Part shown: piece by piece, positions 20,393 through 37,477 of the stretch
Layout: each line of letters starts with the position of its first letter
How positions within the stretch are numbered: the first letter of the stretch is position 1
Virus record (IMG/VR): IMGVR_UViG_3300032087_003790
Coordinates: 1-41,916 of that record
DNA: 41,916 bases
From: a virus
Direction: 5' to 3' (one strand)
Translations under genes and position numbers: made by a program
The notes under the pieces: generated by a model
What the model was told of the DNA's origin: nothing
The model's database searches: none
What the model saw: the letters and a program-made list of their open reading frames with translations, nothing else

Positions 20393-20830
20393 ATGAAAAT
20401 CAAAAAGCAATTTCAACCTTTAATAGACCTGCTAAATCAGAATAAGCATGAGACTATTGAATCTTTAATGCCAGAAATCTTAAAGATAGCAGGTGCTAAA
20501 CAAGCATCAAAAACTTTCCTTAAAGACGATGAAGGTAATACAACCCATATTTTCTGCTATTATCATAAGAAGTGGGAGCCTATCTCTGTGGGCTACACAA
20601 CTCGACAGAAGTCTGCTTCTGGGTATAACACCATGTGTAAAGAGGGCCAGAGTCGCTGGACTAAACAACAACGGCAAGCTAAACTGGATCGCGATGAGCT
20701 AATGAGCGACTTTGCAATGGGTGCTGTTGAGGCTGAAGACTTGAAGGACGAGCTGAAAGCTATAGACGAGCGTAAAGCTAAAATAGTCCCACGCGAAGAC
20801 GGCATTGGCTATGACAACATTGAGGAGTAA
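20393..20830 (+). CDS. Unknown protein, paralogue of the 33023-33517 protein
   Basis: 145 aa. It has an N-terminal helix (MKIKKQFQPLIDLLNQNKHE), then a compact beta core (TTHIFCYYHKKWEPISVGYT), the motif KSASGYNTMCKEGQSRWTKQ (residues ~73-92) and a C-terminal charged helix (QRQAKLDRDELMSDFAMGAV onward). The same blocks in the same order occur in the 164-aa protein at 33023, including SASGYN, GQS-WTK-QR and an AI-x-R helix. Both copies are under the same promoter module; a role in early takeover or replication, perhaps nucleic-acid binding, is inferred. No known family is recognised. Confidence 0.7.
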   Translation: MKIKKQFQPLIDLLNQNKHETIESLMPEILKIAGAKQASKTFLKDDEGNTTHIFCYYHKKWEPISVGYTTRQKSASGYNTMCKEGQSRWTKQQRQAKLDRDELMSDFAMGAVEAEDLKDELKAIDERKAKIVPREDGIGYDNIEE

Positions 20831-24320: not shown

Positions 24321-24456
24321 GATGATAGCCGATGCTACTAGCCTACACGACGCCATATTTTTAGTTGAATATTATTGTATTAGTAACAATATCCCTTCTA
24401 GTCAATATGACGTCGTGTGGTTATTAGATCACGCTGAGCTTACGCAGGTAAAATAA
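24223..24456 (+). CDS. Small protein, MLSNVIKFP start
   Basis: 77 aa from ATG 24223, preceded by AAGGAGCGGGAAG. It begins MLSNVIKFPDKRKARAKANQ. A basic stretch near the N-terminus and an acidic C-terminal half (VLSKMIADATSLHDAIFLVE) suggest a short helical protein. Similar openings occur in small phage proteins of unknown function. It overlaps the preceding gene by 98 bp out of frame and converges with the dUTPase-family gene, overlapping its last 17 bp. Confidence 0.6.
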   Translation: MLSNVIKFPDKRKARAKANQRKEKEQHFEVLSKMIADATSLHDAIFLVEYYCISNNIPSSQYDVVWLLDHAELTQVK

Positions 24457-25126
24457 TTTGAGGCTTAATGTGAGTTCTATAATGTTTTTCTAAAATGCTG
24501 TAGAACTCACTAAAAGGTTTCTCTTTATTGTCTTCCCATAATCTCACAGCTGCAATACTATCTTCAATACCATTCCAATCTTTAATATAGCTGCCGTCTT
24601 TATATCCTTCATTTTGCCGTAGCGCATTAAGAGTGTTCTTCATCATATAGAACCAATATAATTCAGCAAAGTCTAAGCCATAATTAAGGCAGAAAGCTAA
24701 AAACTCTTGAATGTTTAGTTCTTCTTTATTAATAAGTCTGCCGCACCATTCAGTTACTTTCTCACAGATTACTTCATCTGGCACAGTCTCAATCATACCA
24801 TTCTTAGGCTCGCTATTTGGCAGGAATTTGTAAGAAGCTTTTATTAGCTCATCTATATTAGTTACTAGAAAGTCACTATGACCGTGCACAATACAGTAAT
24901 TCAAAATAAAGTGCCAAATGTCAACTAACTCTATTCTAACGTTGTTATAGTCTGGCTCGTGCTGTTTCCACCATTTAAAACCTAACTCTGTTATTAGTTC
25001 TCCACATTCAGCAAAGATGGCCATAGCATGGTCGTGGCCTGCTGTGCGCCAATCCTTTGAAGAGCATTTTTGATTTAACTTATCTTGCATAGCAAGCATT
25101 TCTTTAATTCTATCTTGGTTATTCAT
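24440..25126 (-). CDS. Dimeric all-alpha dUTPase / dCTPase family protein
   Basis: 228 aa from ATG 25126 (GGAG 10 bp upstream; 8-bp overlap with the DHFR stop, ATGAATAA). It has the metal-binding pattern of the all-alpha NTP pyrophosphohydrolases: E40 and E43 in HAMAIFAECGELITELGFKW, then E66 and D69 in RIELVDIWHFILN. The KWWK segment and the late motif YKDGSYIKDWNGIEDS are typical of dimeric dUTPases (dUTPase_2). Known members turn dUTP/dUDP into dUMP; the T4 gp56 branch also removes dCTP. It sits in one operon with DHFR and ribonucleotide reductase. If the ThyA-fold enzyme works on dCMP, a dCTPase activity would fit. Confidence 0.85.
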   Translation of the reverse strand: MNNQDRIKEMLAMQDKLNQKCSSKDWRTAGHDHAMAIFAECGELITELGFKWWKQHEPDYNNVRIELVDIWHFILNYCIVHGHSDFLVTNIDELIKASYKFLPNSEPKNGMIETVPDEVICEKVTEWCGRLINKEELNIQEFLAFCLNYGLDFAELYWFYMMKNTLNALRQNEGYKDGSYIKDWNGIEDSIAAVRLWEDNKEKPFSEFYSILEKHYRTHIKPQIILPA

Positions 25127-25652
25127 ATAAATCATTCTCCGTAATTTTAGTATAGGTTATATATTCATGAGTGTCTGCTAAAGGATAGGCTACTTCTACT
25201 TTATAGTTAGAAGAAACAAAGTAGCCACTATGCCAAGGAAAGTGTACTGTATTTAAACTAGGCGAAGTATTCGTATTTTTTTCTACGAACAAATTAACGC
25301 GTGTCAAATATATTTTATCTGCAAGAGGTAAAAAATATTCGTATATTCTCGCTCCACCTATAATAAATATTTCGTTAGACATTGTTTTAGCTAGTTCTAA
25401 TGCTTGTTCTGGTGTATTAACTTGCCTCACTCCAGGAACTTCTATAGGCTTAGAACTGATAACAATATTAGCTCTATTTGGTAAAGGTGTATTGTTTAAA
25501 CTTTCAAAGGTTTTCCTCCCCATTATAACTGTTTTATTTAAAGTTAATCGCTTAAAGCGTTTTAAGTCTTCAGGCAAATGCCATGGTATATCGTTATCAA
25601 TACCAATGATACCGTCTAAACTAACTGCAGCAATGACATTAATAGTCTTCAT
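25119..25652 (-). CDS. Dihydrofolate reductase
   Basis: 177 aa from ATG 25652 with TTGGAG upstream, chosen over 25727 because it begins exactly like DHFR (MKTINVIAAVSLDGIIG). Recognisable parts: the catalytic helix PWHLPEDLKRFK (Asp substrate contact), GRKTFESL, LPNR, and the NADPH-binding FIIGGARIYEYFLPLADKIY. It reduces dihydrofolate to tetrahydrofolate, the cofactor of thymidylate synthase and dCMP hydroxymethylase. Normal length. Same operon as RNR and the dUTPase-family gene. Confidence 0.93.
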   Translation of the reverse strand: MKTINVIAAVSLDGIIGIDNDIPWHLPEDLKRFKRLTLNKTVIMGRKTFESLNNTPLPNRANIVISSKPIEVPGVRQVNTPEQALELAKTMSNEIFIIGGARIYEYFLPLADKIYLTRVNLFVEKNTNTSPSLNTVHFPWHSGYFVSSNYKVEVAYPLADTHEYITYTKITENDLYE

Positions 25653-25664
25653 TTTATGCTCCAA

Positions 25665-25693
25665 TAAAGGCGCCGACCATAAGTTGATCGGCG
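25665..25693 (-). terminator. Possible weak terminator between RNR and DHFR
   Basis: On the minus strand CGCCGA (25693-25688) and TCGGCG (25676-25671) form a 6-bp GC stem with an 11-nt loop, followed by CCTTTATTGG. The T tract is weak, so partial termination or mRNA processing protection is more likely than a full stop. It fills the 62-bp gap after the reductase gene. Confidence 0.35.
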
Positions 25694-25714
25694 GTAATTT
25701 TAGATCAGGCCACT

Positions 25715-27607
25715 CTAGATTTCGCATGAACCACTACTACAAGCTAAAGTTTGTGCTGATACAGTATTGTCTTCTTTTTCATACTCTGTTAGTTCGAACC
25801 AATTTATTTTAGGTTGTGGATAAGCATTAATGAACTCATAATACTCTTCTTCAGTAAGGTCTTGATACGGTGCTTGCATATACGTATGATCCGTATGCGG
25901 CAAGAAACTAATGCCAGATACCTCGTCAAAATGCTCGTATACCCACGCACCTACTTCTAACCATTCGTGGTCTTTTACTGTAATAGTAACAGAAGGTTTA
26001 TGCTCACACCATTCTCGTTGATACAACAACCATAGCTCCAATGCTTCTATTGCAGTCATATCATTACGAGTAATTGCGTTATCTGGTGCTTTTATAGGAA
26101 AACTAACCACTGCAGTACTATCTGGTCTATATAGTTCATCTTCTATAAGAAAACCTTTGTCTTTCATAAAATGGTATAAAGGATCTTTCTTATCTACTCT
26201 GACGGTTCTTATATAGAATTGATTGTGCCGTGCGTGTATACCACTAGCAGTATCGCATAATTGGCTAACAGTACCACTAGGTTTAACGCAAGTAATAGCA
26301 GTAGAAGGATTAATGCCTAACAGACTAGCCCACTCATGATTAACTTCTCTTGCATGGTCTCTAAGATCATTTAGTATTTCTTTTAAAGCGGCTTTACTCC
26401 GTTGTCCTGCCATAACTATATGATCCATAATACCCGTTAAGCTAACGCCAAGCAGTGCCTCTTCTTTAGTATTTAGCGCCCATGTCTCAGATACAAAATC
26501 AAAATCTGTTAACGTAGCTTGCAACGTACCTAAAATAGTAGCGATACGCACTTTGCGCTTTAAGTCAGACAACTTATCATTAGGACGAATAATGACTTCA
26601 GACAAATTACAAAGTTGTTTATCTCGCAATATTATTTCTGAACAAGGATTACATCCGTAATGCCTATATTGAGAGCGCCTTCCCCATTTAGCTGCTTGTT
26701 CTGCTGCTGCAGCTCTATTGAAAATACCCCGCTCTCCAGACTTAGATTTAACTAAGGCTAACCACTCCTCCATAAAGATTTCAGAAGACGGTTTTTCAGT
26801 ATATGCAATGCTATTATTAGCTAATGCTCTTTGAGGATCTGCGTCATACCAGTTACCTATTTTAGCGTCACGCATACGTTGATCAGATAGATTGCTTAAG
26901 CTAATCAAGGCACTGCGACGTACGCCTCCTACTACGACTATCTCGCCTACCATACACATCAAATCATGCACTTCAATACTAGTTAGCTTCCGTCCTGCTG
27001 CTTTTTGAAAAGTCATAATAGTATAGTTAAACAGCCGCTTTAATGGTTCAGGTCCTGATGAACGGCCACCAAAGGTCTTAAGTCTTGCACCTGCCGGTCG
27101 CAACCTACTGAAATCAGTGTCCGGAACACTGCCATTATACAAATAATTAAAAAGCGCGTGATAAGCTTTCGCCCAGCCCTTTTTGCTATCTTCGACAACA
27201 ATTGTATCTCCAGTTTTTTCTAAAATTTGCGGTATTTTAGGTAACTTCGAGATCTCTTGCCGCTCACAAGAAAAGCCCACACCGGTGCCACACATTAAAA
27301 TGTATAAAGTTTCAGCAAATGCTCGTTTAGTATTTACAGCTATATAAGAACAGTTATACCCAGCTAAATTTTCTCTGTCTAATGCAGGTCCTGCAGTCAT
27401 TAGCGCACGCATAGACGGCATTACTTCTAGATTAACTATAGCAGGTTTAACTTGCTCTTGTAACACAGAACTAAATTGCTTATTAGTTCGATTATCAAAA
27501 TAGTCTATATATCTTTGTACTGTTTCTGGCCATGTCTCTCGTCTTCCCAAATCTTCTCTCCATCTTGAGTATCGAGAAATATGGATATATTGTTGGTACA
27601 AATCCAT
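25715..27607 (-). CDS. nrdJ: Class II (B12-dependent) ribonucleoside-triphosphate reductase
   Basis: 630 aa, monomeric RTPR type (Lactobacillus leichmannii enzyme is ~740). Cysteines fall as expected: C86 in GYNCSYIAV, thiyl-site C322 and E324 in GCNPCSEIIL, C333 in QLCNLSEV (11 residues after C322, as C408/C419 in the model), and a C-terminal redox pair C623/C628 in ACSSGSCEI. GGVRRSALISL and CVKPSGTVSQL are further landmarks. It makes dNTPs from rNTPs using adenosylcobalamin, with no oxygen or second subunit needed. GAGGA lies 9 bp before the ATG. Its first 103 bp overlap the upstream 67-aa reading frame. Confidence 0.95.
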   Translation of the reverse strand: MDLYQQYIHISRYSRWREDLGRRETWPETVQRYIDYFDNRTNKQFSSVLQEQVKPAIVNLEVMPSMRALMTAGPALDRENLAGYNCSYIAVNTKRAFAETLYILMCGTGVGFSCERQEISKLPKIPQILEKTGDTIVVEDSKKGWAKAYHALFNYLYNGSVPDTDFSRLRPAGARLKTFGGRSSGPEPLKRLFNYTIMTFQKAAGRKLTSIEVHDLMCMVGEIVVVGGVRRSALISLSNLSDQRMRDAKIGNWYDADPQRALANNSIAYTEKPSSEIFMEEWLALVKSKSGERGIFNRAAAAEQAAKWGRRSQYRHYGCNPCSEIILRDKQLCNLSEVIIRPNDKLSDLKRKVRIATILGTLQATLTDFDFVSETWALNTKEEALLGVSLTGIMDHIVMAGQRSKAALKEILNDLRDHAREVNHEWASLLGINPSTAITCVKPSGTVSQLCDTASGIHARHNQFYIRTVRVDKKDPLYHFMKDKGFLIEDELYRPDSTAVVSFPIKAPDNAITRNDMTAIEALELWLLYQREWCEHKPSVTITVKDHEWLEVGAWVYEHFDEVSGISFLPHTDHTYMQAPYQDLTEEEYYEFINAYPQPKINWFELTEYEKEDNTVSAQTLACSSGSCEI

Positions 27608-31852: not shown

Positions 31853-32153
31853 GTTTCCAAAGTCCCCAAGGAAAAAAGCCTTCGTAATACCACGAGTTAG
31901 GTTGAATCTTTATATAGTCGTTATCTAACCAAGGAGGAAATAAGGACATATATAAAATTAGCTTTTGCTCAGGATCGGACAAAGAAATATAAATATCATA
32001 GTAATGTAATAAATTGGTTAAATGAGGTCTAGAAATATGCAAGCCTAATTGTTTTATAATACGAGTAATAGGCACACCAGTTTGTTGTAACTGATATGCC
32101 TTAGCTAAAGTATTTTCAACAACTAGTTTACGCTTAGCTCTTGAAGTTTTCAT
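31845..32153 (-). CDS. Small HTH-like protein
   Basis: 102 aa. The N-terminal half has a basic start (MKTSRAKRKLVVENTLAKAY) then a helix-turn-helix-like stretch AYQLQQTGVPITRIIKQLGL / HISRPHLTNLLHYY (residues ~19-52), of homeodomain-like resolvase type. The C-terminal half is Trp/Tyr/Pro-rich (PNSWYYEGFFPWGLWKRD). It may bind DNA. Overlaps both neighbours (8 and 20 bp), so it is co-transcribed with the primase-helicase gene. Function unknown. Confidence 0.6.
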   Translation of the reverse strand: MKTSRAKRKLVVENTLAKAYQLQQTGVPITRIIKQLGLHISRPHLTNLLHYYDIYISLSDPEQKLILYMSLFPPWLDNDYIKIQPNSWYYEGFFPWGLWKRD

Positions 32154-32478
32154 ACCGTTCCTTGCACTCGGGACAACGAGTTATTAGATCATTTAGTGCA
32201 GCTTCTTTGTTAACCGTAGCTAGTTGAGTAAATCTCGATAAATAAGAACTATCTGCAACTAATAAGTCAGAATCATGATTATAACCACGCCTGATCATTT
32301 CGCGTGCTAACTCTTCGTGACGTGCAGCTAATTGGCTTATTTGCAACTGATTTAATACTGCATGACCTTCTAAAGACTTTTGCTTATTCAGCGCGCCGTT
32401 AATCATGTGACATTCAACATGCTCGCCTAGTAAGTGCTTTCTGCACATGATTTCTGGCGGTAACATCCACATACGCAT
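32134..32478 (-). CDS. Pyrimidine-dimer DNA glycosylase-like protein
   Basis: 114 aa. MRMWMLPPEIMCRKHLLGEH at the start and ARHEELAREMIRRGYNHDSD (residues ~51-70) resemble the phage proteins related to pyrimidine dimer DNA glycosylases (DenV/Pyr_excise group), with the catalytic Thr/Met region poorly conserved. The C-terminus has RCPECKERYE, a CxxC seen in related proteins. Such enzymes repair UV damage. The link rests on recognised N-terminal blocks, so treat as tentative; a structural role for this family is the alternative. Confidence 0.5.
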   Translation of the reverse strand: MRMWMLPPEIMCRKHLLGEHVECHMINGALNKQKSLEGHAVLNQLQISQLAARHEELAREMIRRGYNHDSDLLVADSSYLSRFTQLATVNKEAALNDLITRCPECKERYENFKS

Positions 32479-33022: not shown

Positions 33023-33517
33023 ATGTCAATTAAAAAAGCTTATACAAGCCTAGTATCTTTTTTACAAGCTAATCAAGATAAAACTGTTTCAGATATTTTG
33101 GATGAAGTGGTTGAAATGTGTTCGGCTAAATCTGCTGGTTCTTCTGCTACTACTGTCCATAAAAATGAAGAAGGTGTTGTTACTCACATTCGTTGTGGAT
33201 TTTTCAAGCAATGGCTACCTCTTTCTCATGTAGAATTCGGAACTAAGTCAAGTTCTGCTTCTGGATACAACTCTATGAGTAAAGCAGGCCAATCAATTTG
33301 GACTAAAAAACAACGTGACGCTAAAAAAGCTCGTGAAGAGTTGCTTGATGGTGTAGCTTCTGGTGATGTCGATCCTTCTGATCTTGCTGAAAAGTTAGAA
33401 GCTATCGAAGCAGAACGCACTGAAGTTGTATCTCATCCTTTAGGTGCTGACACGTTAGAAGAAGCTTTAGCTTACTCTGCTGAAGAATTAGACAATATGG
33501 CTGAAGCTGCAGCTTAA
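33023..33517 (+). CDS. Unknown early protein, paralogue of the 20393-20830 protein
   Basis: 164 aa. N-terminal helix (SLVSFLQANQDKTVSDILDE), a beta core with THIRCGFFKQWLPLSHVEFG, the shared motif SSSASGYNSMSKAGQSIWTK (residues ~76-95), a charged helix (KQRDAKKAREELLDGVASGD) and a longer Ala/Glu-rich acidic tail that the 145-aa paralogue lacks. It leads the replication operon, directly before SSB, with its own promoter and ATGAGGAT ribosome site. The acidic tail is reminiscent of SSB-type interaction tails, but I claim no family. A replication accessory or host-takeover factor is inferred. Confidence 0.7.
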   Translation: MSIKKAYTSLVSFLQANQDKTVSDILDEVVEMCSAKSAGSSATTVHKNEEGVVTHIRCGFFKQWLPLSHVEFGTKSSSASGYNSMSKAGQSIWTKKQRDAKKAREELLDGVASGDVDPSDLAEKLEAIEAERTEVVSHPLGADTLEEALAYSAEELDNMAEAAA

Positions 33518-34376: not shown

Positions 34377-36041
34377 ATGTCAATCTATAAAACAGTTAAT
34401 TTAGATGAAGTACAAGCCGCAATAAACCCTTCTGAAGACCTTGCATTCGATACTGAAACTATTGGTAAATATGGACATATTAAGCTAGCTCAATTTTATC
34501 AACGGCATTGGAAGCAAGCTTTGATAGTGATAGACCCGCCAATATTTGACTTGTTCCTTTTATTAAATAATTTCAATAAAACTAATATTGTAATGCAATA
34601 TGCTTCTTACGATATTAGCACCATACAAACCCAAACAGGTTCTCGTTGGGTACCTAAAACGTTTAGCGATACTTTCTTGCTCGCTAGATTGGCCTTTCCT
34701 CATTTAGACAAATACAGTTTAGATGAACTAATTGCTTTAGTTTATGATGGCGATCCTTACGCTGAAGCTAATATTATTAAAGCAGATATGCATAAAGCAG
34801 ATTGGAAATTCTTAGACGAACAGAAATTACTCTATGCTGCAATAGATGTCTATTATTTATTTTATCTTTATGATAAAGTCAAGCATTGCGAAAATAGCTT
34901 ATCTTATAAAATAGATATGAGAGCATTACGACGTGCATTAGATTTTCAATGTAATGGTTTAGCAGTAGACAGAGATAAACTAGACGCTAAACTAAAACAG
35001 AATCTAATAGATATAGACTATGAAGCGCTTCCAATTAACGCTAATAGCTATAAACAAGTTAGACCTTATATCGGTTCGGATGAATCAGACGCAAAAGGAT
35101 TAGCTAGATTAGCTATGTTTGGCAATGAAAAAGCTGCACAAGTACGTAGAGTTAGATCGTTGTTGAAACAAAATTCTTTTATTAAGAAATTTGACACTGA
35201 AGAAGGTAGAATATACGGTCGCTTTGCTCCTTCTACACGATCTGGGCGCTTCTCTTGTTCGGACCAAAATTTACAGCAGTTGCCTAGAGCTTTGAAAGGT
35301 TGTTTTGGAGTGTCTGAAGACAAGGTGCTAATTTTCTCTGATTATGCTCAATTAGAGTTAAGAACAATTGCGGCTATAACTGGCGATGTAGCTTTATGCC
35401 AATTCTTTTATAACAAAGAAGATGCGCACGGTATTGTAGCCGAAAAGTTTTTTGGGCCTAATTGGACTAAAGATAATAGACAGACAACTAAGACAATTAA
35501 CTTTAACGCGCTATACGGCGGAGGTGCGCCCATGCTACAGCAAATTCTACTAATGCAAGCTAATCAATGGCATGAAGTAGAAGCAGTACGAACAATGATG
35601 CGGAAATGGAAACGCTTGTTTGCAGGCATCGCAGCATGGCAAGAAAACGGCATTAAAGAGCATAAGAAAGGTAGATTAGGTTCTACTCCTTTTGGTCGGC
35701 AGTACAAAGGCCGTTTAATGACTGATCATCTTAATATTGAAAATCAAGGTTTTGGAGCAGACGTGGCTAAATTAGCTTTACACTATATGTATGATGATCT
35801 TATAGCTACTGATGCTAAATTAGTTAATTTCGTGCACGATTCTTACATTATTGAAATGGATAACGACGAATCTGCGTACAAAACTGTTTGTGCACGTTTA
35901 GCAGAAGCAATGAAAGATGCGTGGAGTGAAGCAAGTAAAATGGCCCGAATTAAAGATATACCAATGCCGGTAGAAGTATCTGTCGGTTTTAATTGGGGTG
36001 AAATAGAATCAGGTAAAACTATATACAGTACGGAGGCCTAA
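34377..36041 (+). CDS. Family A DNA polymerase with 3'-5' exonuclease
   Basis: 554 aa, compact (T7 gp5 is 704). Exonuclease: DTET (D25, E27), SYDI (D79) and YAAID (Y153, D157), so DEDDy. Polymerase: motif A DYAQLELRT (D322), motif B RQTTKTINFNALYGG with R368, K372, F376 and Y380 at the spacing of E. coli R754/K758/F762/Y766, and motif C VHDSY (H487, D488, S489). The position-762 equivalent is Phe. Motif C has Ser where most family A enzymes have Glu (HDE). It replicates the genome with SSB and the primase-helicase. The ThyA-fold gene follows with no gap. Confidence 0.95.
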   Translation: MSIYKTVNLDEVQAAINPSEDLAFDTETIGKYGHIKLAQFYQRHWKQALIVIDPPIFDLFLLLNNFNKTNIVMQYASYDISTIQTQTGSRWVPKTFSDTFLLARLAFPHLDKYSLDELIALVYDGDPYAEANIIKADMHKADWKFLDEQKLLYAAIDVYYLFYLYDKVKHCENSLSYKIDMRALRRALDFQCNGLAVDRDKLDAKLKQNLIDIDYEALPINANSYKQVRPYIGSDESDAKGLARLAMFGNEKAAQVRRVRSLLKQNSFIKKFDTEEGRIYGRFAPSTRSGRFSCSDQNLQQLPRALKGCFGVSEDKVLIFSDYAQLELRTIAAITGDVALCQFFYNKEDAHGIVAEKFFGPNWTKDNRQTTKTINFNALYGGGAPMLQQILLMQANQWHEVEAVRTMMRKWKRLFAGIAAWQENGIKEHKKGRLGSTPFGRQYKGRLMTDHLNIENQGFGADVAKLALHYMYDDLIATDAKLVNFVHDSYIIEMDNDESAYKTVCARLAEAMKDAWSEASKMARIKDIPMPVEVSVGFNWGEIESGKTIYSTEA

Positions 36042-36848
36042 ATGCCAAGTCAATTTGAATTAGATTATATTAGTCTTATAGACAAAATTAAGCGTAAAGG
36101 AGTTCGCAGAGAAACTAGAAATTACCCTACTTTTTCTCTTTTCGGCGAAACTTTAGAGATAAGAGAACTAGAGCAAGGAATCTTTCCTATTTTAACAGGG
36201 CGTAAAATGTATTATAAAGGAGTATTAGGAGAATTCGCTGCTTTTATTCATGGAGTAGACAAATTAGAAGACTTTGAAAAGTTTGGCTGTAACTATTGGA
36301 GGCAGTGGGCTAATAAAGATGGTTCAATTAAAGTGGACTACGGCAACACTTGGAGGAATTTCGAGGGCTATGATCAGTTAGCTAAACTAATAGAGACACT
36401 TAAAACTAATCCTGCGGATCGTAGGATGTTGATCTCTGGTTGGAGACCTCACGCTTTAGCTGAATTGTCTTTGCCTTGTTGTCATTTATTGTACCAATGG
36501 TATGTTAATGCGGATACTAATAGACTTGAAATGATATGGTATCAGCGATCTGTAGATGTAATGGTCGGTTTACCTTCAGATATTATCTTAGCAGCAATAT
36601 GGAATATAACTTTAGCTGCTGAAGTAGGGCTAAAGCCGGGCAAGATTACTATGATGTTAGGTGATACACATATATATTCCAATCACGCAGAAGCAGCTAT
36701 GCAATATTGTAGGCAATCGTTCCAAGCCCCTTATTCTCCAAAATACAAGATATTAGCTGGAACTAAATGCACTACATTTACTCCAGACGAATTTGAACTT
36801 ATTGATTACCATCCAGCAAATCCCATTAAATTCGAGGTACATACATGA
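36042..36848 (+). CDS. ThyA-fold pyrimidine methylase, probable dCMP hydroxymethylase
   Basis: 268 aa, full length. Catalytic SLPCCHLLYQW (C147, H148, Q152), YQRSVDVMVGLPSD (R169, S170, D172), GDTHIYSNH (H210, Y212). The residue matching E. coli ThyA Asn177 (in GLPFN), which reads the uracil ring, is Asp180 here (GLPSD). Asp at this place is the hallmark of T4 dCMP hydroxymethylase (Asp179), and Asn-to-Asp turns ThyA toward dCMP. Expected reaction: dCMP plus methylene-THF plus water to 5-hydroxymethyl-dCMP. Plain thymidylate synthase is the alternative, supported by the phage DHFR. A dNMP kinase gene overlaps its end by 4 bp. Confidence 0.85.
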   Translation: MPSQFELDYISLIDKIKRKGVRRETRNYPTFSLFGETLEIRELEQGIFPILTGRKMYYKGVLGEFAAFIHGVDKLEDFEKFGCNYWRQWANKDGSIKVDYGNTWRNFEGYDQLAKLIETLKTNPADRRMLISGWRPHALAELSLPCCHLLYQWYVNADTNRLEMIWYQRSVDVMVGLPSDIILAAIWNITLAAEVGLKPGKITMMLGDTHIYSNHAEAAMQYCRQSFQAPYSPKYKILAGTKCTTFTPDEFELIDYHPANPIKFEVHT

Positions 36849-37477
36849 ATAATTCACACTTACCTAATATTTTAGTTTTAGGCTATAAAGAGCACGGTAA
36901 AGATTTTGTGTGCGAATTATTAGCTAAACATTTTGGTTTTAGTTTTACTTCTAGTTCTATGTTTTGCGCAGAAGAAATTCTCTTTCCACTCATGAAAGAC
37001 AAATATGCATATAAAGATGCAGAAGAGTGTTTTAATGATCGTAGAAGTAGTCAAGAAAAGCGCGCCTATTGGTTTGAACAAATTACGCAGTTCAACATAC
37101 CTCATAGAGATAGGTTAACTAGAGCAATATTGCGAACTAACGATATTTATTGTGGCATGCGCAATATAGAAGAATTTGAGGCCTCTAAACAGCATTTCCA
37201 TTGCGTTGTTTGGGTAGATCGTAGTGAGCATTGTGAGCCTGAACCTGAAAGTTCTTGCACTGTGCATGCAAGTTTAGCTGATATAGTATTTGACAACAAT
37301 GGCACTAAAAAGCAAACTGAGCAAAAAGTTAAAAATTTGTATGCCACTATTATGCAGCAATATTTCAATAAAGAAATTGTTGTACCAGAACCGCAAAAAG
37401 TAGAAGTGGTTGCTATGGCCGCAGCTAAACCTAAATTTGATTTTAAACTGCAGACTAAAGGAACTTCAAATGAGTAA
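36845..37477 (+). CDS. Deoxynucleoside monophosphate kinase-like protein
   Basis: 210 aa. P-loop-type start LPNILVLGYKEHGKDFVCEL (G-x4-GKD, residues ~6-25) as in T4 gp1-type dNMP kinases (GxxxxGKDT). Then AEEILFPLMKDKYAYKDAEE, HRDRLTRAILRTNDIYCGMR with an R-x-R lid region, and VVWVDRSEHCEPEPESSCTV, a WVDR-type strand with conserved Asp-Arg. It should phosphorylate dNMPs, including possibly 5-hydroxymethyl-dCMP from the adjacent enzyme, to diphosphates. The tail after residue 180 is Pro/Val/Ala-rich. ATGA overlap with the upstream gene implies coupling. Confidence 0.75.
   Translation: MNNSHLPNILVLGYKEHGKDFVCELLAKHFGFSFTSSSMFCAEEILFPLMKDKYAYKDAEECFNDRRSSQEKRAYWFEQITQFNIPHRDRLTRAILRTNDIYCGMRNIEEFEASKQHFHCVVWVDRSEHCEPEPESSCTVHASLADIVFDNNGTKKQTEQKVKNLYATIMQQYFNKEIVVPEPQKVEVVAMAAAKPKFDFKLQTKGTSNE

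Follow-up and report, generated by a model that had tools for sequence, protein, structure and literature searches.

The window analyzed here, an entire virus record of 41,916 bases, carries on its plus strand at 36042-36848 a gene for a ThyA-fold enzyme with Asp at the position of Asn177 of thymidylate synthase (TS), and the locus raises the question of which nucleotide this enzyme binds and which product it makes. The labels hydroxymethylase and plain thymidylate synthase are both readily given to phage ThyA homologues with Asp at this position, and an earlier note on this DNA had read the gene as bearing a dCMP-hydroxymethylase signature. In the window protein, the residue that governs the substrate and those that govern the product are readable separately, and from the PF00303 match, the alignment, the tree and the AlphaFold2 model we predict a dCMP methylase (5-methyl-dCMP synthase).

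The gene is an ATG-started open reading frame of 268 amino acids with no internal stop, and residues 8-266 of its product match the thymidylate synthase family PF00303 (Pfam, E 4.7e-65). The AlphaFold2 model has a pLDDT of 95.8, and its top 50 PDB matches in Foldseek are all thymidylate synthases with TM of about 0.9. The catalytic Cys and the RS.D and H.Y motifs, together with the PF00303 fold, place the protein in the ThyA/TS_Pyrimidine_HMase superfamily. C147, H148, R169, S170, D172, H210 and Y212, listed as intact in the earlier note, are all present and are invariant in the window family; these catalytic residues are common to synthases and hydroxymethylases and are therefore uninformative on the product. 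The window also contains portal (P22-like match), capsid and terminase genes, indicating a P22-portal-type phage with a short tail; the short tail had been proposed in the earlier note.

The observation made from the sequence of this gene was correct. Residues 176-180 read GLPSD where ThyA has GLPFN, and in our alignment Asp180 (codon GAT, 36579..36581, plus strand) stands at N177 of E. coli ThyA (EcThyA) and D179 of T4 gp42. Since two further, independent IMG/VR metagenome contigs (L002 and L003) code for an identical protein, Asp180 is not an error or a chance change. Asp at this position, the mark of dCMP-specific members, moves base preference toward cytosine, dCMP over dUMP (PMC8670742, PMC6400193), and in MetaGPA Asp177 was found mostly on contigs with modified cytosine (PMC8670742). 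We gathered relatives by tblastn against phages, by a scan with the window protein and by a scan with the family profile; position 177 was Asp in 69 of the 72 distinct window-family sequences and Asn in the other three, while Asn was present in 74/75 of the control TS set. Positions 177 and 93 lie outside the family scan patterns, and the same residues were found in the seven phages from plain tblastn (VPMS1, KF-1, PH1, Amaethon, Kolga, MW202665 and MW202744; 41-47% identity, Asp in 7/7). Judging from this alignment, Asp at position 177 of the window family is under selection. Because Asp180 is strongly conserved and Asp177 has a published role in substrate choice, the substrate of the window enzyme is likely dCMP rather than dUMP, and the dCMP preference drawn earlier from this residue gains support from the whole family.

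A different explanation keeps dUMP as the substrate, with a thymidylate synthase that tolerates Asp180, perhaps with Asp99 compensating, and with the dUTPase, DHFR and kinase of the phage boosting dTMP supply. The three members that have gone back to Asn speak for it, as do the td genes of Gaprivervirus (Tevenvirinae), presumed dTMP synthases, which have D177. However, Asp is kept to about 40% identity and Asn is equally kept in the TS set, where neutral tolerance predicts otherwise, and both the base preference swapped by Asn-to-Asp and the MetaGPA distribution described above argue against it. We consider this explanation unlikely. The tree requires three separate Asp-to-Asn changes within the window family, and these independent reversions (the ThyA-like genes of L008, L034 and L035) keep Asp93 and LPCCH, offering a natural test of substrate switching. 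The Gaprivervirus td genes (L186:2995-3855, L188:1336-2196 and L191:10001-10858) are annotated as thymidylate synthase, lie next to frd and read GLPFDIGS, unlike T4 td, which has Asn at 177; their D177 could mark a further enzyme acting on dCMP, or the change could simply be tolerated.

Substrate and product are governed by different residues, and Asp177 is a signature of the substrate only. In the ternary structure of T4 gp42, the hydroxymethylation signature consists of Asp145, at the third position ahead of the catalytic Cys (Cys-3), and Ser94-x-Tyr96, so that a hydroxymethylase is expected to have Asp or Glu at Cys-3 and Ser/Thr-x-Tyr at T4 94-96 (PMC6400193). TS has Leu at Cys-3, and the D145N variant of gp42 is inactive; Ser94, the structural counterpart of E. 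coli Val93, acts with Asp145, Val85 replaces Trp83 of TS, which controls water access, and the C-terminal tail is absent (PMC6400193). We compared the window protein with this signature. First, the residues L144-P145-C146-C147 (36471..36482, plus strand) place Leu, not Asp, at Cys-3 of the catalytic Cys147, and Leu was found there in 72/72 distinct relatives, although both the LPCCH and the GCNYW motif served as selection criteria in the family profile scan, which in part explains their constancy. Second, Ser/Thr-x-Tyr is absent from the T4 94-96 position of the window protein, where the alignment shows Val98-Asp99-Tyr100. Third, Trp89, equivalent to Trp83, and a C-terminal tail of TS length (PIKFEVHT) are kept; across the family this position is Trp, with Phe in two members, and His147 and the full tail are found throughout. 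The site fits what is expected of a methylase, Asp177 on a TS-type site capable of hydride transfer (Trp83, Leu143 and the tail), but has an extra change, Asp at 93.

By comparison, Cys-3 was Asp in every hydroxymethylase-type reference enzyme that we examined and in 55/56 distinct T4 gp42-type rows. It was Asp in SPO1 gp29 (annotated dUMP hydroxymethylase), Yuavirus Churro, Kuttervirus Mutine and Bordetella phage MW2, and also in the enzymes encoded beside homologues of the 5-hydroxymethylcytosine (5hmC) carbamoyltransferase, an experimentally characterised enzyme (PMC8670742): those of Xp15, two Acinetobacter phages, BF503P2 (two genes) and IMG/VR contig L271. These carbamoyltransferase-linked enzymes resemble T4 gp42 in the C-T that follows the catalytic Cys, in S-N-Y and Asp177, and in lacking the tail. 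In Bacteroides phage BF503P2, two diverged genes of the dCMP-hydroxymethylase type (L274:10456-11262 and L274:13336-14016) lie near the carbamoyltransferase homologue. When we looked for the carbamoyltransferase (PF02543) in 50 window-family records, none was found. In the maximum-likelihood tree, the split between the hydroxymethylases and the window family has 100/98 support, some hydroxymethylase branches being long and their inner order unsure, and the window family (100/99) stands beside the TS clade; clustering of the window family with known hydroxymethylases was not seen in this tree.

The remaining residue of note is Asp99 (codon 36336..36338, plus strand), which lies at the E. coli Val93 position beside the catalytic Tyr100. 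Position 93 was Asp in 72/72 distinct relatives and is Val in most TS, the control scan pattern PVYG[KA]QW fixing Val93 in part of the control set. Since all relatives carry this Asp, the active site is not simply that of ThyA N177D. From its location, Asp99 could contact the cytosine amino group via water, or could activate water for hydroxymethylation. In the latter case the enzyme would be a dCMP hydroxymethylase in which Asp99, on the neighboring strand in the E. coli Val93/T4 Ser94 region, replaces T4 Asp145, and 5hmC would enter the DNA. We keep this explanation mainly because Asp99 is invariant and sits next to the proton-abstracting Tyr, at the site where T4 places Ser94, the partner of Asp145 (PMC6400193), and it also accounts for Asp180; we nevertheless hold it to be improbable in view of Leu at Cys-3 throughout the family, of Trp83 and the TS tail, which limit water and position folate for hydride transfer, of the lack of carbamoyltransferases in the 50 records, of the separate clade and of a chemistry that needs no phage DHFR. 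Because the product signature is absent from the window protein and from its whole family, we rejected the label of dCMP-hydroxymethylase signature as the best reading, and 5-methylcytosine (5mC) is a better prediction than the 5hmC of the earlier note.

We favor a dCMP methylase, since Asp177 sits on a TS-type site (Leu at Cys-3, Trp83, His147 and the tail), and rate somewhat above even the chance that the window enzyme makes 5-methyl-dCMP and, with the adjacent kinase-like protein, places 5mC in the phage DNA in an Xp12-like manner. As cited in PMC8670742, the exchange of Asn for Asp in a ThyA scaffold yields a dCMP methylase that forms 5-methyl-dCMP (Liu & Santi 1992, Hardy & Nalivaika 1992). 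In the proposed reaction, Asp180 in place of Asn177 would make cytosine the base that is bound and protonated at N3, and the remaining steps would proceed as in thymidylate synthase: Cys147 would attack C6, 5,10-methylene-tetrahydrofolate would donate a carbon to C5, and the folate hydride would reduce this carbon to a methyl group, giving 5-methyl-dCMP and dihydrofolate. The phage DHFR would recycle dihydrofolate, the adjacent dNMP-kinase-like protein would phosphorylate 5-methyl-dCMP, and the phage polymerase would insert 5-methyl-dCTP, resulting in 5mC in virion DNA as in Xanthomonas phage Xp12. His at 147, as in EcThyA, speaks against a methylase, this being the second modification-associated position of MetaGPA. 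We can also picture, though as less likely than not, that the clade is a natural dCMP methylase lineage on a TS scaffold, which would have arisen separately from the T4 hydroxymethylases with Asp93 as its own change; where a deaminase is present, 5-methyl-dCMP might feed both 5mC-DNA and a thymidylate supply that bypasses dUMP.

The genes around the enzyme were then compared with those of its relatives. A family A DNA polymerase with a 3'-5' exonuclease domain (34377..36041, plus strand; PF00476, PF01612) lies directly upstream. The next gene (36845..37477, plus strand), which shares its first 4 bases with the end of the ThyA-like gene, encodes a P-loop protein with a conserved GxxxxGKD motif, and this protein matches phrog_139, dNMP kinase (E 2.7e-10); T4 dNMP kinase (1DEK) was its second Foldseek match, with E 8e-4 and low TM. 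It is likely dNMP-kinase-like and is a candidate kinase for the modified dCMP. In L101 and L102 (L101:9103-10005, L102:9103-10005), the gene immediately before an Xp12-type D177 enzyme and a dCMP deaminase joins an NTP-PPase to a dNMP-kinase-like domain in one protein, and this fusion beside a D177 enzyme links the functions of NTP-PPase and kinase. The same fusion explains the composite family phrog_38514.

On the minus strand, 11 kb from the ThyA-like gene in the case of DHFR and dUTPase, three nucleotide-metabolism genes follow each other in overlapping order: an adenosylcobalamin-dependent (class II) ribonucleoside-triphosphate reductase (25715..27607; phrog_367 and TIGR02505, E 7.6e-89, below the curated cut-off), a DHFR (25119..25727; PF00186, E 3.3e-45) and a dimeric dUTPase of the dUTPase_2 type (24440..25135; PF08761, E 3.4e-25; C. 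jejuni dUTPase 1W2Y, E 4e-24). In 69 of 86 family loci a MazG-like NTP-PPase lies within 2.5 kb of the ThyA-like gene; five loci have a dUTPase_2, and none has both, which suggests that dUTPase_2 substitutes for the NTP-PPase that neighbors the enzyme in the majority of relatives. Since the dUTPase_2 of the window resembles a genuine dUTPase, the phage has no evident dCMP source of its own, which counts against the methylase. The set of dUTPase, DHFR and dNMP-kinase-like protein also suits ordinary dTMP synthesis, and a dCMP deaminase, which yields dUMP, lies within 2 kb of the gene in about half of the window relatives, both being in favor of the dUMP explanation; the window itself has no dCMP deaminase. 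In three relatives (L012:17611-18219, L013:21354-22103 and L016:19048-19647) the deaminase is fused to a domain like the N-terminal one of dATP/dGTP diphosphohydrolase (PF18909), two genes after the ThyA-like gene. Elsewhere in the window, a short ORF at 32134-32478 (minus strand) matches phrog_1183 (endonuclease V N-glycosylase UV repair enzyme, E 2.5e-10), and in VPMS1 the equivalent region holds a gene annotated as endonuclease V. Two plus-strand ORFs (20393-20830 and 33023-33517), the first matching phrog_10459, share the motif K.ASGYN.M.K.GQS.WTK.QR and flank the replication region.

The presence of DHFR bears on the product, since hydroxymethylase chemistry leaves tetrahydrofolate while TS chemistry makes dihydrofolate and requires DHFR (PMC6400193). 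A DHFR gene within about 10 kb was found in 0/81 gp42-type, 70/79 ordinary TS, 13/83 window-family D177 and 7/9 AXL1-type rows, counts that are not independent by descent, and in T4 the DHFR gene adjoins td, not gene 42. Whole-record searches found DHFR above the Pfam cut-off in 3/32 long family records; as proof of methylation across the family, the argument was dropped, and it is kept as modest evidence because most relatives are without DHFR. A second thymidylate synthase as the reason for DHFR was ruled out: neither a second ThyA (PF00303) nor ThyX was found in the window, and no other PF00303 gene or ThyX in 32 family records, the two PF00303 matches of one record being pieces at opposite contig ends, as if of one split gene.

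ThyA homologues with Asp177 on phages with modified cytosine are already known as a general kind (PMC8670742). The present reading predicts 5mC DNA in small short-tailed phages, including culturable phages of Vibrio, Edwardsiella, Pseudoalteromonas and Dickeya. Full replacement by 5mC is documented for very few phages, with Xp12 as the standard, and the prediction, if true, could add a whole group and would give nucleotide chemistry a naturally occurring dCMP methylase. Restriction resistance, which the earlier note had tied to 5hmC, is a plausible consequence of either base.

Among known systems, T4 gp42 shares the base-recognition Asp (D180/D179) and the catalytic residues with the window protein; however, it is about 20% identical and belongs to a separate clade, its Asp145, Ser94-x-Tyr96, Val85 and Thr149 are missing from the window protein, and the full tail is the window protein's. 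The TS enzymes of E. coli and L. casei and the engineered N177D/N229D dCMP methylase share with it the fold, the catalytic Cys/Arg/Ser/Asp/His/Tyr, Leu at Cys-3, Trp83, His147 and the tail length, and the engineered enzymes also share Asp at 177, which in the window is a natural form. EcThyA is 28% identical; the LPCCH motif and Asp at 93 are window-family features, and position 263 is mostly Lys or His in the family, compared with Ala in EcThyA. The D177 'thymidylate synthases' of Vibrio phage VPMS1, Edwardsiella phage KF-1, Pseudoalteromonas phage PH1 and Dickeya phage Amaethon fall in the window clade with the same signature residues and a similar flanking order of polymerase, nuclease, helicase and ligase, but in these phages the gene adjoins a MazG-like NTP-PPase and, as a rule, a dCMP deaminase, where the window has dUTPase_2, DHFR and the dNMP-kinase-like protein. 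Our literature search found nothing on the base composition of VPMS1/Kafunavirus, no published assay of these four enzymes and no characterisation of the clade or its active-site variant. In Xp12 DNA, 5mC replaces cytosine (PMC7653180, PMC8670742), and papers on 5-methyl-dCTP deaminase and on new thymidylate biosynthesis in this phage are cited by title in PMC11946847. The Xp12-type (Bradleyvirinae) D177 enzyme was represented in our comparison by gp63 of AXL1, a near relative of Xp12 with Xp12-like restriction resistance (PMC9206674), in which NTP-PPase, the D177 ThyA-like enzyme, dCMP deaminase and DHFR stand in one row. As in the window, AXL1 combines Asp177 and no acid at Cys-3 with a phage DHFR and a nucleotide pyrophosphohydrolase-type enzyme. 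On the other hand, gp63 is about 26% identical to the window protein, belongs to a separate clade and differs at Cys-3 (Asn) and at position 147 (Pro), and AXL1 has a dCMP deaminase whereas the window has the D177 enzyme, DHFR and dUTPase without one; the likeness between AXL1 and the window is one of pathway, not of close kinship.
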